Shown here: positions 29,005 to 61,320 of the stretch, piece after piece
Position numbering within the stretch: position 1 is the first letter of the stretch
Layout: every line of letters starts with the position of its first letter
NCBI RefSeq assembly: GCF_902686445.1
Contig: NC_062222.1
Span: 40,919,792-40,983,791, forward strand
DNA length: 64,000 nt
From: Sciurus carolinensis
Lineage: Eukaryota; Chordata; Mammalia; Rodentia; Sciuridae
Direction: 5' to 3'
Translations under genes and position numbers: made by a program
The notes under the pieces: model-generated
Told to the model about the DNA's origin: nothing
What the model saw: only the letters and a program-made list of their open reading frames with translations
Database searches by the model: none

Positions 29005-29078
29005 GGTGCTGGGGATCGAACCCAGGGCCTTGTGCATGCAAGGCAAGCACTCTACCGACTGAGCTATCTCCCCAGCCC
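28956..29078 (-). mobile_element. Young ID SINE with long poly-A tail
   Basis: Minus-strand ID body 29003-29078 with an intact A box (tagctcagtcggt on the minus strand) and B box (ggttcgatccc, CpG preserved). About 45 T precede it on the plus strand, i.e. its A tail. A 9-bp duplication, tgattacta, flanks it (28947-28955 and 29079-29087). The intact promoter and long tail point to a recent insertion, mobilised by LINE-1. Confidence 0.95.
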
Positions 29079-29732: not shown

Positions 29733-29822
29733 TTTTTTTTTTTTTTTGGGTGCTGGGGATCGAACCCAGGGCCTTGTGCTTACAAGGCAAGCACTCTACC
29801 GGCTGAGCTATCTCCCCAGCCC
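29733..29822 (-). mobile_element. Young ID SINE
   Basis: Minus-strand body 29748-29822, differing from the copy at 29003-29078 at only a handful of positions, with intact A and B boxes. Flanked by ctctgctttt (29723-29732 and 29823-29832); the right edge of the left repeat merges with the tail. Confidence 0.93.
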
Positions 29823-54923: not shown

Positions 54924-55093
54924 ATTGACTTATTTCACTTAGTATGATATTTTCCAATTCCAACCATTTATCTGTAAATAACATAATATTATTCTTCTTT
55001 ATGACTGAATAATACTCCACTGTGTATATATACCACAGTTTTTTTATTTGTTCATCTGTTGAAGGGCATCTAGGTGGGTTCCACAATCTAACT
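54924..55093 (-). mobile_element. Twin-primed LINE-1, inverted 5' part (left of the ERV)
   Basis: Minus-strand LINE-1 ORF2 end. The same inverted segment continues beyond the ERV at 59986-60050. Together they correspond to about 36380-36602 of the full-length element. The plus-strand part that begins at about 60053 corresponds to about 36605 onward, so the inverted and direct parts abut in element coordinates. Confidence 0.85.
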
Positions 55094-55543
55094 TGTTGGG
55101 ACTAATGACACGTTAATTAACTCAGGCTGACTCCTTACTCCCTGGTGAGTGAGCAAGATCAAGGCTCAAAGGCGGTTTCAGAGGTTCATGACAATAAACT
55201 GGACCACCATCAGGGATTGGTTAACAATAGTTCTGCAAATGTGATCAGCTTGTGCTTGTCATACAGTCCAATGGGACTCTTGCCTGCATGAACCCCCCTG
55301 CCTTGCTGACCTTTAAGCTGATTGGTTCCCACCTAGCCCCCACCCTACATAAAAGCTGTGTGACTTCCTCAATGAACGAGTTCCTGCTGTGACGGGTCTC
55401 CCTGACGCGTCTGATTGCCCTCCACCTGGAGGGCTGGGAGTGGGCGGTCAGTCTGCCCTACCTATCCTGGTCTGACCTTGTTGGGGAGTGTCCCCTTCCC
55501 TTGTCGCTGGTCGAGAAGGGCAAGGGGGCTTAAGACCCTGATA
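55094..55543 (+). repeat. 5' LTR of the class II ERV
   Basis: 450 bp, TGTTGGGACTAA to a decayed end (ctgata, where the 3' LTR has cgaca). A TATA-like 'cataaaagc' lies at 55348-55356, and aatgaa at 55371-55376 where the related solo LTR has aataaa. Both LTRs share this change and a segment of about 45 bp just downstream that the solo LTR lacks. Confidence 0.93.
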
Positions 55544-55545
55544 TC

Positions 55546-55563
55546 TGGTGCCCAACGTCGGGC
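55546..55563 (+). promoter_or_regulatory. Primer binding site, lysine-tRNA type
   Basis: The sequence tggtgcccaacgtcgggc starts two bases after the LTR. It resembles the site complementary to tRNA-Lys (1,2 type), with changes at two or three positions. Lysine primers are usual for betaretroviruses. Confidence 0.8.
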
Positions 55564-55666
55564 CCCTCAAGGCTGAACCGCAGCCAAATTGAAGAGGCAG
55601 TTTCGAAACCGAAAGTACCGGCAGATCGGGCCAAAAGAGTTCCGAGGTAAGGGCATCCCTGAAAAG

Positions 55667-56471
55667 ATGGGGCAAACACACCACACATGGTGACCCTGTG
55701 CTCTCAGCTCTTAGACTCATGCTAAAGAGTAGGGGCCTTGAGTCTGATACACAGGCGGAAAAAGCCTGGGACACCTTTACTTGGGTGGCCCCTTGGCTTC
55801 CTGCTGCTAATCTTTTTGACTGGTCCACATGGGATCGTGTAGAACAACTTGTTAAGAAGAGGGAAATCAGTTTAGGGGAGGGTCCCCCATTAGGAGTCTG
55901 CCCTACATTATCCACCCTTAAGGCCTGCTTCTTTCCAGGACCTCCCAAAGGGGGCTCCAAGTTTCTCCCCAGAGAGCTGCTGCCTAAAGAACTGCCGGCT
56001 CCTCCCGTTACATCTCCTTCCAGAAACTTGCCACAGAGTAAACAACGTTGGGAGACCTTTAATGAGGAGCCCAATCCATCTCCATCCGCTCCTCCCAAGG
56101 TTGAGTAACCACGAGGGCAGCCAGCCTCTACACATAGGGAGGGCCCACTACCGCCCCAGGGAGGCTCATTGCTGCCATCTTGTATTCTGGGGCCACATCA
56201 GACTCCAATGAAAGCCCTCGCCCTCCTCCTTCCGGATGGTGGGAAATCTTCCTGGTGGCCATTTTATGATACTGGGCAAGAACTCACAGACTCTAACCTC
56301 CCCCCTCCCTGTATGGCCTTCCCAATAAATGTTAAAATGTTAGTTTGGGAAGGAATGACTACCGGTCACAAATTGGCCTGTGCAGGGATGAAAGATTGCT
56401 CCATGGGAAGGTGGATTGTGGCTACCAAAGATATTGGCACACAGCTTCTGCAAGCGAGTGGGCAGATGTAA
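55667..56471 (+). pseudogene. Class II ERV gag, N-terminal fragment
   Basis: An ATG-GGG-CAA start (55667), typical of Gag with a glycine for myristoylation, is followed by a stop eight codons on. The main frame (55698-56108) is shifted relative to it. That frame has a matrix-like stretch 'WVAPWLPAANLFDWSTWDRV' (here residues about 28-47) and a long proline-rich part. After a stop at 56106 the same frame is open again from 56169 to 56471. No capsid major homology region or zinc knuckle is recognised, so only the 5' part of gag remains. Confidence 0.7.
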
Positions 56472-56472
56472 A

Positions 56473-58670
56473 GGGATTCCTTATCTTCAAGTCTCTTCTT
56501 TCTTGCGCTTCTCTGCTCTTCCTGCAAACTTAAACGTCTCCTTCTTCTCCCCCTCTTAATTCCTCCTCCTCCTCCAACTTCGCCTCACCCAGCCCACCTA
56601 GTCCTCCTGCCATGAGGTCCCACATATGCCAGTGTGGAGGGAGTAACCAGCCCAACCATCAGTGGCATGTCCTAGTAAGGAGTATGATATAGTAGCCCCA
56701 GTCCCCACAAGTATTGGGAGATAATTGTTTCACAATTTTCTGCATCCAAACCTGAATTGATTACTAACCAGGAATAAGGGTTAAAATGCCCTAAGCATCA
56801 AGTTTCTGCTAGAACCTATTAGCCCCTTTCAGATCCTGATCTCAGTGAAGGCTTACATTGAAATGTAAATAGAGAAAGCCTGAAGACTCAGTAGGAGACT
56901 GGTCTCAAACCCAAGAAAAAAAAGAAAAAAAAAAAAGAGCAAAAAGTCTTACCTGAACTCCAGCAAAAGTAAATTTTATGGTGCTTTACTAAAGTAATTA
57001 ATGGTGGTATCATTTTTCCAGGACTCTTGTTTTTTTTGAATTCTACATATTTTTTGAGCTTATGACTTTTTTGATCAGTTCTATTTTTTTATTCAACTAG
57101 AGTTTTTGAACATCTGTTACATTGCAATGGAGATTCACCTATAAAGTTTCAAGGCCTTTGATTTTGTGTTGTGTGTATGTCGTGCTGTCTGATGTCATGT
57201 TTTGTCTGTATCAAAACTGAGTGCTCCTAAAATTAAAATTTTAAAATGGATCCAAATACTTTAAATTCACGTGATTTAAAAAGGTTCATTTTAAATTGGG
57301 TAAACTAATAGAAGTAAAATATCTTGAAAATAACTTGCAAGTCTCTAGGTGGTCAAACTAATAAAATGTTGATGTTAATAAAATGTCTAACATCAATTTT
57401 TCTAGGACTTTCCTCCAACAAGAAAAAGCTGGCAAATACTGTTCAGGACACTTGTCTAATATCTTGTTTTTTGTTTTTTGTTTTTTGTTTTAAGAAAATA
57501 AGTGAATTAGAGTTAACATGCATGGGATTACTCAAATGTGTTTGTAGAAAAAATTGTTTTGTGTCATCACTAAACTAAAAACAAGGTTACTAAGAGTTAT
57601 GCCCTAACAGGTACAATTCTATATACGAAGGGTTCCAAAAGATTCAACTGTTTCAATTACAGTACTTATAAATAACAAAATATTTAATCTTATTAAAATG
57701 GAGTAATTTATATAAATTAAGAAATTTCATAAAAGTTGTTTCAGAATGTGAACAAAAAGGTCAACAGATAGGAAAGAAAAAATAAAAAGTTCTAAATATG
57801 GAAATATATTTAGTGAAAAACAAAATGTTTCTAGGTGAGAAAGTGCTTATGTGATAAACTACATGAGGGTCTAAATAAGTGCTAAGAAAGTCTGTAAAGG
57901 GCAAGTTTCAATAAGTTTGCATGTAACTAAGTTGGTTGTATCTATGTGACACAGTTAAAGTTATTTAAGGTTTTTTCCTAAGGTGAAATACTAAAGTTCT
58001 GATATAAACCAAAGTTTAATCTATATGGTTAAATGACAAGGATTTCTTAGAAACACTAATTTACTCTTAAATTTGTGTCTATTAAGTTTTATTCTTTAGA
58101 ACAATTAGTCTTAAAATTGGGGTATGCAATTATGGTTAAGCAACTGTTAGAGTATTGTACTATGTTACAGTCTAAATTTTTCTTTAAAAACTAAATTTGG
58201 TATTATAAAAGTGTCAAGGTAATCATGAAATGGTCACTCTTTGTATGTTGAATGTGTTCATATTTTCCAGGTATATAAGTTTTTAAAGCAGGGAATTTAT
58301 CAAGCTGCTATTCTCCAAACTTAACTTGTCTGTAATAGTAATTTAAACTTAAAAAGAGTAAATTTTATTGGGGATTTATTTCTATCATTTAATGTTCTAT
58401 TATAGGACCTGTCATCAATAGGGTATATGTAAAATTTGTTAAATGTATTTCTGAAGGTTATTGAGAGCCTGATTTGTTTAAAGGTTAAACATAAAAACAC
58501 TTTGTCACTTTGCCACACAAAAGGAAAGTTAAAAGCTCTCTCAGCATTTCTTTAATTCATGTTTAGATACAATGTTAAATTGTGTTAACTAATGTTCATG
58601 TAGACTTAGGATTCAATATATGTAAACTACTTAAAATGACATTTAAGAAAGAGTGTAATGCGCAGTAGCA
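56473..58670 (+). other. AT-rich ERV interior, no pol recognised
   Basis: 2.2 kb between gag and env. After a C-rich start (to about 56620) the composition becomes strongly AT-rich. I recognise no protease, reverse transcriptase or integrase motif. The longest frame (57324-57578, 84 codons) is featureless. It may be foreign filler taken up by recombination or a non-coding part specific to this family. Confidence 0.55.
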
Positions 58671-58671
58671 A

Positions 58672-58778
58672 AAATGGGACAGCAGTGATTGAGATTGGGG
58701 TCTCTGACCTCATGACTTTGGATGATGGACTTCCTTGAGAGTTACACAGAGCTCTTAACATTGCACTTTGCAGCTCTA
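58672..58778 (+). mobile_element. Piece of a different LTR family inside the ERV
   Basis: Two blocks, 'agcagtgattgagattgggg' (58681 on) and 'cttaacattgcactttgcag' (58754 on), match the LTR-like element at 60785-61320 in the same order. There they lie about 220 bp further apart. So a deleted version of that sequence is fused to the start of the env remnant. Confidence 0.75.
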
Positions 58779-58780
58779 CC

Positions 58781-59236
58781 ATCTTAGATCTACAGGCTCA
58801 ACTTGATTCCTTGGCCGCTATCGTCCTGCAAAATCATCGTGGTTTGGATCTGCTCACAGTGAAGGAAGGAGGGTTTTGCCTGTTCCTTTGTGAAGAGTGC
58901 TGTTCCTATGCCAACCACTCTGGCATCGTACAAGATAAAATCAAAAACCTACAAGAAGATCTGGAACGTAGTAGGAGCGAGCTCCACTCTAATTTCCTCT
59001 GGACTGGGTTACACAGGTGGCTCCCCTACCTCCTCCCACTTAGGGGACTGCTAATCACCATTATCCTTGTGTTCACCTTTGGGCCTTGCATAATCAATAA
59101 GCTTATCCATTTACTGAAAAGCCAGGCTAAGTCTGTGCAGCTCATGGTAGTCCGACAGCATTATACTGCCCTTTGTAATGATGATTGGGAGCCCTATAGG
59201 ATCATGGATCACTCGTATCAGGACACTGGGGTCTAA
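58781..59236 (+). pseudogene. ERV env remnant, transmembrane subunit
   Basis: An open frame of about 150 codons begins without a credible ATG. It holds the conserved 'LQNHRGLDLLT' segment, then a C-X6-CC motif (CLFLCEECC), a Leu/Glu-rich helix, and a membrane anchor with the 'FGPCIINK' junction (around residues 85-105). A cytoplasmic tail follows, ending at a stop at 59234. The surface subunit, fusion peptide and signal peptide are missing, so it cannot act as a fusion protein. The C-X6-CC type occurs in gammaretroviruses and in type D betaretroviruses. With the lysine primer site and 6-bp duplication, the type D pattern is the better fit. Confidence 0.85.
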
Positions 59237-59279
59237 GTGTCTCTCCCTTAAGCCCTGCTCCTCCTGAGGGGCCCGCCTG

Positions 59280-59515
59280 AAGTGCTAAGGTGGTAGTCGA
59301 TGATGGGTAAGATTCATGGGGAGCTCATACCAACCTAAGACAGGAAATGAGGGCTAGAGCCTCATTGTCCAATGACGGGTAAGGATGTTGCTCTGCCGTG
59401 GACAACCTAAGACAGGCACACCTTCGAGTAAGGCGGACCCCCAAACTGCTAGGGTGATGGTCCATGATGGGTAAGGCCCTCCCAGGGGCAACCTAAGACA
59501 GACACACCCTTAATA
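59280..59515 (+). promoter_or_regulatory. CTE-like RNA export element, three units
   Basis: Three times, a 'gatgggtaag/gacgggtaag' motif is followed 20-30 bp later by 'caacctaagacag'. Unit 1: 59298-59311 and 59331-59344. Unit 2: 59369-59384 and 59403-59416. Unit 3: 59461-59476 and 59489-59502. The constitutive transport element of Mason-Pfizer monkey virus, located between env and the 3' LTR, carries two such motif pairs as internal loops that bind the export factor NXF1. Place and motifs agree here. Function is inferred, and the third unit is unusual. Confidence 0.85.
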
Positions 59516-59521
59516 TAAAAC

Positions 59522-59535
59522 AAAAAAGGGGGATG
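59522..59535 (+). promoter_or_regulatory. Polypurine tract
   Basis: aaaaaaggggg followed by gatg-type bases, directly before the 3' LTR. The usual plus-strand primer site of a retrovirus. Confidence 0.88.
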
Positions 59536-59985
59536 TGTTGGGACTAATGACACTTTAACTAACTCAGGCTGACTCCTTACTCCCTGGTGAGTGAGCAAGA
59601 TCAAGACTCAAAGGCAGTTTCAAAGGTTCATGACAATAAACTGGACCACCATCAGGGATTGGTTAACAATAGTTCTGCGAACGTGATCAGCTCATGCTTG
59701 CCATATAGTCCTATGGGACTCTTGCCTGCGTGAACACCCCATGCCTTGCTGACCTTTAAGCTGATTGGTTCCCACCTAGCCCCCACCCTACATAAAAGCT
59801 GTGTGACTTCCTCAATGAACGAGTTCCTGCTGTGACGGGTCTCCCTGACAGTCTGATTGTCCTCCGCCTGGAGGGCTGGGAGTGGGCGGTCAGTCTGCCC
59901 TACCTTTCCTGGTCTGACCTTGTTGGGGAGTGTCCCCTTCCCTTGTCGCTGGTCGAGAAGAGCAAGGGGGCTTAAGAACCCGACA
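59536..59985 (+). repeat. 3' LTR of the class II ERV
   Basis: 450 bp, tgttggg to gaca. TATA-like 'cataaaagc' at about 59791, aatgaa at 59814-59819. It differs from the 5' LTR mainly by transitions, with one or two single-base indels. Confidence 0.93.
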
Positions 59986-60352
59986 CTAACTATTGCGAAT
60001 TGAGCTGCTATAAACATTGATGCAGCTGTGGTACTGTAGTATGCTATTTTTAAAACCAAAGGTCCTATGTTTTCCCTGATAAGTGGATAATGATACATAA
60101 TGGGGTTGGGGGTGTTAGGTAAGAGAAGATTAGATTACGTAGAGGGAAATGAGAGGGAGGAGGGGGCGGGGGGCATGAAAGATGGTGGAATGAGACAGAC
60201 ATCTTTACCCTATGTACATGCATGACTACACGAATGGTATGTGTCTACATTGTGCACAACCATAGAAATGAAAAATTGTAGCCCATTTGTATACAATGAA
60301 TCAAAATGCAGGCTGTAAAATAAAAAAATTAAAAATTAATAGAGTAAGAATT
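59986..60352 (+). mobile_element. Twin-primed LINE-1, remainder (right of the ERV)
   Basis: 59986-60050 is the rest of the inverted minus-strand part. From about 60053 the strand switches to plus ('ccaaaggtcctatgttttcc'), running through the 3' UTR with a G-rich run at 60160-60175 and the 'accctatgtacatgcatga' segment, to an A-rich tail near 60352. Confidence 0.85.
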
Positions 60353-60784: not shown

Positions 60785-61320
60785 TGTGGAGAGCAGTGAC
60801 GGAGGATGGGAGAGCAGTGACTGAGATTGGGGGTCTTTGATGCCCTCATGGCTGTGGCATGCCCCGTGTCTGGGAATGTTACTGAGCAAAGGCACAGGAT
60901 GCTCAGCTGCCATAGCAATTCCCTGCATGAGGAGATTCTGTGCAAAAGTACTACCAGTTCTGACCTTGATCTCAGGCACACAGCTCCTGGGAAGGAAGGG
61001 ACTCTTATGCCAGACAACCACAATGTTTCACCAGCTCAGTTTCCCAGATTCCTGCTTGCCTTATAGTAACTTTTAACAATGGACTTTCTTGATAGGTACA
61101 CAAAGTTCCTAACACTGCACTTTGCAGCTGTGGATTGCAACTACAGAAAAGCTTCATAGAATGTCTTAGTTTCTGTAACTTTCCTGAATACAAAGAATAA
61201 TGATTACATAGTCTTTAACTTGATAATGAGACATATGTAAATAAAGATTGGTAGCATAACTCTTTAGATCTTCATCTCCATCAGATAGCAGAGCTCCACC
61301 TGATCCCAGTTTAATCTTCA
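60785..61320 (+). mobile_element. LTR-like element (probable solo LTR)
   Basis: Starts tgtggagagcagtgac and is of mixed composition, with a polyadenylation signal aataaa at about 61241-61246. The right end is estimated. A T tract (60731-60752) precedes it. Parts of the same sequence occur within the ERV at 58672-58778. No duplication found at the ends chosen. Confidence 0.6.

Follow-up and report, generated by a model that had tools for sequence, protein, structure and literature searches.

The combination of a betaretroviral gag with a gamma-type env is the plan of the type D retroviruses, whose CTE is usually pictured as one hairpin with two symmetric loops; natural variants of this signal would allow symmetry to be tested against loop number. 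According to the passages concerned, each CTE unit with AAGACA in its loop takes one Tap-p15 (PMC4330393), and each lobe of the CTE can bind alone, a symmetric platform for an NXF1:NXT1 dimer having been proposed (PMC4330390). Part of a study of lentiviral vectors describes several CTE copies as better than one or two (PMC1904242), which makes a gain from additional loops plausible.

The locus described here lies in a stretch of 64,000 nucleotides of the Sciurus carolinensis genome, which was analysed as a whole and is referred to as the window. Three units, each consisting of a GGGTAAG box (G1 to G3) followed by a CCTAAGACAG box (C1 to C3), were found in it as exact matches:

59305-59343, plus strand: unit 1, GGGTAAG...CCTAAGACAG, exact match
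59377-59415, plus strand: unit 2, GGGTAAG...CCTAAGACAG, exact match
59469-59501, plus strand: unit 3, GGGTAAG...CCTAAGACAG, exact match

These three are the only such pairs in the window, and none occurred in 100 dinucleotide-preserving shuffles of it, which bears out the observation of an earlier note on this DNA that three motif pairs stand between env and the 3' LTR. All of them are located after the env ORF, which ends at 59236, and before the 3' LTR, which starts at 59536, the place also occupied by the type D CTE, and AAGACA is present in the loop of every unit. A repeat finder recovered the identical three copies, the starts of their 3' boxes being 72 and 86 bases apart.

The units belong to a provirus with the following features:

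55088-55093, no strand: target-site duplication CTAACT, 5' copy
55094-55543, plus strand: 5' LTR, from alignment with the 3' LTR
55546-55563, plus strand: probable primer binding site, which we take to be lysine-tRNA-like
55593-56108, plus strand: start of gag, betaretroviral matrix domain (Pfam PF02337 Gag_p10, E 1.5e-06, above the cut-off)
58739-59236, plus strand: open env end with the transmembrane part, envelope of gamma type (Pfam PF00429 TLV_coat, E 1.3e-44)
59522-59533, plus strand: presumably the polypurine tract
59536-59985, plus strand: 3' LTR
59986-59991, no strand: target-site duplication CTAACT, 3' copy

The provirus extends over 55094-59985 and, as in type D viruses, combines a betaretroviral gag start (PF02337) with a gamma-type env (PF00429), the reading frame of the latter being broken upstream of 58739. 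The interior between the LTRs measures only about 4 kb and contains the start of gag and the end of env, in keeping with the statement in the earlier note that pol and most of gag are lacking. A Pfam search of 14 interior ORFs returned no pol domain, which is a test of modest power given such short and interrupted frames; one of these ORFs gave a weak match, below the cut-off, to an unrelated family. Of 4873 candidates for the stretch following the gag start (55900-57700), 40 were scored, and at least 25 places other than the window cover 1790 or more of the 1801 bases with 89 to 94% identity. This short middle being common to so many places, the shortened form therefore seems to have multiplied as such, presumably with proteins supplied by other elements. 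The two LTRs differ at 24 of 451 aligned sites (19 transitions and 5 transversions, K2P 0.056), corresponding to an age of about 6 to 13 million years if rates between 2.2 and 4.5 per billion sites per year are assumed. Outside the provirus, a 61-base segment at 61069-61129 is 82% like the env part at 58715-58775 and is probably a fragment of a second env-containing element that lies downstream. The window also holds a full-length U6 snRNA match at 12390-12496 (100.5 bits) and, on the minus strand, two weak tRNA-family matches at 29747-29816 and 29009-29066, which we would guess to be tRNA-derived SINEs.

Folding of the region between env and the 3' LTR resulted in two separate structures:

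59270-59439, plus strand: two-lobe CTE hairpin predicted from units 1 and 2 (minimum free energy, base-pair probabilities, covariation)
59451-59510, plus strand: half-CTE hairpin predicted from unit 3 alone (predicted fold, facing probability 0.98)

In the predicted hairpin of units 1 and 2, G1 faces C2 and C1 faces G2, so that the two loops stand in a 180-degree relation, which is the layout of the type D CTE. Unit 3 is predicted to place its single GGGTAAG side opposite its single CCTAAGACAG side in a closed hairpin of its own. All three facings (G1:C2, G2:C1 and G3:C3) are already contained in the unconstrained minimum-energy fold, and folding every unit on itself would cost 17.8 kcal/mol over that minimum. 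The minimum free energy of the whole region (-88.8 kcal/mol, z -2.1) is only moderately below that of shuffled sequences, 4 of 200 being equally low. The fold check thus agrees with the suggestion of a CTE-like element in the right place, since each GGGTAAG side is found opposite a CCTAAGACAG side. A further suggestion, that the third unit could create a second NXF1 site, changes in two respects: unit 3 is a self-contained predicted half-CTE, and, two NXF1 loops being present in the type D CTE itself, it would add a third.

Alignment with the type D CTE, also proposed earlier, could be carried out with the SRV-1 half-CTE primers (PMC4330393), parts of which match the loop strands of the window. 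Sixteen of 17 aligned bases are equal at 59329-59345 (out of a 22-base primer part) and 14 of 15 at 59368-59382 (out of 27). The score of the forward primer, 15, was reached by one of 300 shuffles, while the highest score in 2000 shuffles with another seed was 12 (one in 2300 overall); that of the reverse primer, 13, was reached by 0 of 300 shuffles, the top score being 11.

Covariation was evaluated in a set that went from 89 distinct loci to 70 two-lobe elements and to 14 clusters, with one representative of each (mean identity 65%). The RNAalifold structure of the 14 representatives comprises 45 pairs, with standard pairs in 91% of the cells and two-sided change at 24 of the 45, against maxima of 84% paired and 20 two-sided changes in 500 shuffles and 31 to 47% paired for slid structures; as the structure was fitted to the same alignment, these counts lean towards it. 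The number of further pair types, 49, fell inside the shuffle range (maximum 51). Nearly invariant columns account for 33 of 38 box columns versus 13 of 115 elsewhere, a figure inflated by the way in which most copies were found, namely through an exact motif in one unit, so that conservation of the motif is partly a product of the search. For unit 3, variants in the boxes were not clearly rarer than in the remaining columns (19 box columns with 5 single and 3 shared variants, versus 27 and 26 for 102 other columns outside the hairpin).

Relatives of the element were sought in the genome to which the window belongs (G000, 2.8 billion bases). The 251-base element used as query gave 1499 candidates, and the 40 that were scored all matched at 96% or more. 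Exact motif pairs were found 6526 times, counted as units rather than elements, versus 23 for the reversed control; the pattern C1-G2-C2 occurred 3385 times and a half-CTE following another unit 217 times, each versus 0 for the control. In viral contigs, 77 stretches had one match each, judged from these single matches to be chance. An intron of NXF1 itself reportedly carries a CTE, said to have been found by Li in 2006; four-box scans of the host NXF1 gene (L168, about C11:12314701-12321406) gave no match, or none beyond shuffles.

Of 67 loci that were folded, 18, one of them the window, had three units, 40 had two units at CTE spacing, eight had two tandem half-CTEs and one had a single readable unit. 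At a pairing probability of at least 0.5, the three-unit loci formed G1:C2 in 18/18, G2:C1 in 17/18 and G3:C3 in 10/18 cases. Both lobes were predicted in 29 of the 40 two-unit loci and not in the other 11, and both hairpins in 5 of the 8 tandem half-CTE loci. A second sample was assembled without use of the motif, from the 40 of 403 candidates most similar in the env tail (window included), and the CTE stretch was retrieved for all 39 places other than the window; the sample contained 15 three-unit copies, 20 copies with two tandem half-CTEs and five other forms, among them L217 and L235 with a single half-CTE each, apparently from loss of one 86-base unit. Other copies of the family, including those selected independently of the motif, therefore carry the motif pairs at this place, as the earlier note had expected. 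Its description of a three-unit element is right for the copies of that form, which is nevertheless only one of several layouts with one to four units.

In the tandem-half copies the first unit makes a short hairpin with a spacing of 22 to 25 bases, and the second unit corresponds to unit 3 of the window. When excised alone, the first unit showed facing boxes at a probability of at least 0.5 in 18 of 20 such copies (42/200 for shuffles keeping the boxes) and the second in 13 of 20 (44/200), while unit 3 did so in 9 of 15 three-unit copies, the window included (25/150). A second family with two tandem half-CTEs is represented by L187-L193, the stems of which differ from those of the window's relatives. 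Both of its half-CTEs fold as drawn in all four copies examined in context, and 13 of its 14 units form the hairpin when excised, the exception being the second unit of L189. By spacing, L194 (G000:C9:105761450-105762050) has four units, a two-lobe core plus two tandem half-CTE units, the last two of which are without separate hairpins in the predicted fold.

Comparison of copies by blastn against window 58001-60050 (E up to 1e-3) picked out one segment:

59292-59419, plus strand: two-lobe core common to elements with unlike flanks, 94-98% identity

Four elements each gave a single match within the 58001-60050 region: L136 at 59293-59419 (98%), L029 at 59292-59419 (96%), L126 at 59292-59419 (95%) and L014 at 59300-59420 (94%), the flank available on each side being about 0.5 kb for L136 and L126 and about 1.5 kb for L029 and L014. 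The core-sharing elements fall in three flank backgrounds other than that of the window. For parts of its flanks, L029 has matches in L172 and L173, and L126 likewise in L175 and L037; the cores of these four copies are less like that of the window. The copies L020, L036 and L121, each with two tandem half-CTEs, match the window on both sides of the core. The same switch between core and flank is seen in 30-base bins, some of which are noisy (e.g. 85% for L126 at 59240-59299); most flank pairs had an identity, gaps left out, of about 0.64 to 0.8, which is taken as background. With close relatives that bear tandem half-CTEs and a core 94 to 98% like the cores in unlike flanks, the three-loop form therefore looks recombinant, and judged from these alignments it most likely originated by the setting of a two-lobe core into a tandem-half-CTE element. 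The core was probably moved between families by template switching at the conserved boxes. A tree of the flanks (18 three-unit and 8 tandem-half copies) is in rough agreement only and did not recover the three-unit copies as a clean clade; the group in which the 18 are best gathered also contains two of the eight tandem-half copies, and support is low.

Taking these observations together, we consider it likely that the window element joins a type D-like CTE, made up of units 1 and 2, to a separate half-CTE, made up of unit 3, that its loops are putative NXF1 sites and that its present form goes back to a swap of the core. Units 1 and 2 would form one hairpin with two opposed internal loops, the classic CTE, and unit 3 a separate hairpin with a single such loop. 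Each loop would once have taken one NXF1:NXT1 exporter, so that unspliced RNA of this provirus, which apparently lacks pol, could have been exported from the nucleus and then packaged using Gag and Pol of other origin. The swap itself may have replaced the first half-CTE of a tandem-half element by the two-lobe core, through template switching at the conserved box sequences. Binding of NXF1 and export by the window element are what such a fold would predict.

The two-lobe part might, however, work alone, unit 3 being a passive remnant that hitchhikes on account of its location between the CTE and the polypurine tract. We regard this as possible although rather unlikely. It would account for the lack of clear constraint on the unit 3 boxes, for the existence of one-unit copies (L217 and L235, among 40) and for the lower frequency at which unit 3 and its counterpart fold (9/15 and 13/20) relative to the first half-CTE of the tandem-half copies (18/20). 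Unit 3 nevertheless retains facing boxes although its inner stem sequence differs, and in the tandem-half copies its counterpart is one of two loops and must count if these elements are exported in this way; the second family, L187-L193, likewise pairs two half-CTEs. The origin of unit 3 could also be different, by tandem duplication of the two-lobe CTE and subsequent deletion of the distal lobe instead of a core swap, as might be suspected from the similarity of the 45 bases ending with G3 to those at G1 (76%) and of the 33 bases surrounding C3 to those surrounding C2 (82%), and from the four-unit L194, which suggests that the 86-base unit does duplicate. That origin appears improbable to us in view of a core 94-98% identical in three other flank backgrounds, flanks that match tandem-half copies, and the position of six of the eight tandem-half copies outside the group of the flank tree that gathers the 18 three-unit copies.

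The remaining two explanations are much weaker. The units might switch between the alternative two-lobe pairings raised in the earlier note, 1-2, 2-3 or 1-3; in favour of this, all three units have identical boxes, so that short box pairs could form in any combination. Forcing the 2-3 pairing costs 29.9 kcal/mol over the minimum and forcing 1-3 costs 21.1 kcal/mol, and in the window the probability of the expected flanking pairs is 0.00 for both; the alternative pairings are thus unlikely, and switching among the three units is highly improbable. A chance pattern or a different known 3' element might be considered on account of Rfam, in which the full window had no CTE match at the gathering score and the 59000-59800 part, searched with E values up to 5, had one weak lncRNA match and none to a CTE. 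The motif counts are, however, far beyond chance by both shuffles and reversed controls, and the window has no copy of the 17-base SPRE core motif of syncytin genes even with up to three mismatches allowed, leaving this explanation a negligible chance of being correct. A type D-like CTE followed by a half-CTE, most likely assembled by exchange of the core, is the reading that we retain.

On a wider scale, we tentatively propose, with slightly less than even confidence, that the CTE of this genome behaves as an exchangeable module of one to four putative NXF1 loops in two layouts, two-lobe and tandem half-CTE, that families retain at least two loops in either layout, so that loop number rather than a hairpin with two-fold symmetry may be the export requirement, and that recombination at the loop sequences transfers cores from one retrovirus family to another. 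The tandem-half and two-lobe-plus-half elements suggest that the export signal spreads between retrovirus families as a cassette. There would be thousands of candidate NXF1 sites in one mammalian genome, and intronic copies could affect retained introns.

Among described systems, the MER11 element of SERV-K is comparable in that a CTE was gained by recombination and replaced another export system, as stated in part of the paper concerned (PMC11379458); unlike the window element, it is about 1000 bases long and, according to its authors, without obvious NXF1-binding loops. Bat endogenous betaretroviruses are likewise endogenous type D-like elements with predicted NXF1 (Tap) sites, and the passages on them describe a motif prediction and mention neither a third unit nor a tandem half-CTE (PMC3621094). 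Gunnison's prairie dog retrovirus and ERV-PDRV.1 are type D betaretroviruses of the squirrel family, as is the window element, and the terms 'cte' and 'transport element' have 0 occurrences in the available text on them (PMC7354474). In titles and abstract openings of the top-ranked open-licence papers no description of a natural three-loop CTE or of tandem half-CTEs was found, a prior description being possible. The half-CTE (hCTE, CTE-B) shares with unit 3 the single loop per hairpin and, as a laboratory half, is reported in the relevant passages to be bound by the RRM-LRR part of NXF1 (PMC4330393, PMC4330390); here it is a natural form, present in the window as unit 3 and in relatives as tandem pairs. 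The extra predicted loop and the probable origin by shuffled parts imply that variation of a signal usually depicted in a single fixed form may already exist in nature. With the type D CTE of MPMV and SRV-1, the window element has in common the position between env and the 3' LTR, two predicted opposed loops in one hairpin and the AAGACA loop. It differs in its mosaic of core and flanks, in belonging to an apparently pol-less endogenous family and in a third loop in a separate hairpin, which brings the predicted loops to three versus only two in the type D CTE and adds to the layout by which the latter is defined. The kind of element, a CTE, is known; what is new is the architecture, an extra predicted loop in its own hairpin together with a mosaic of core and flanks.
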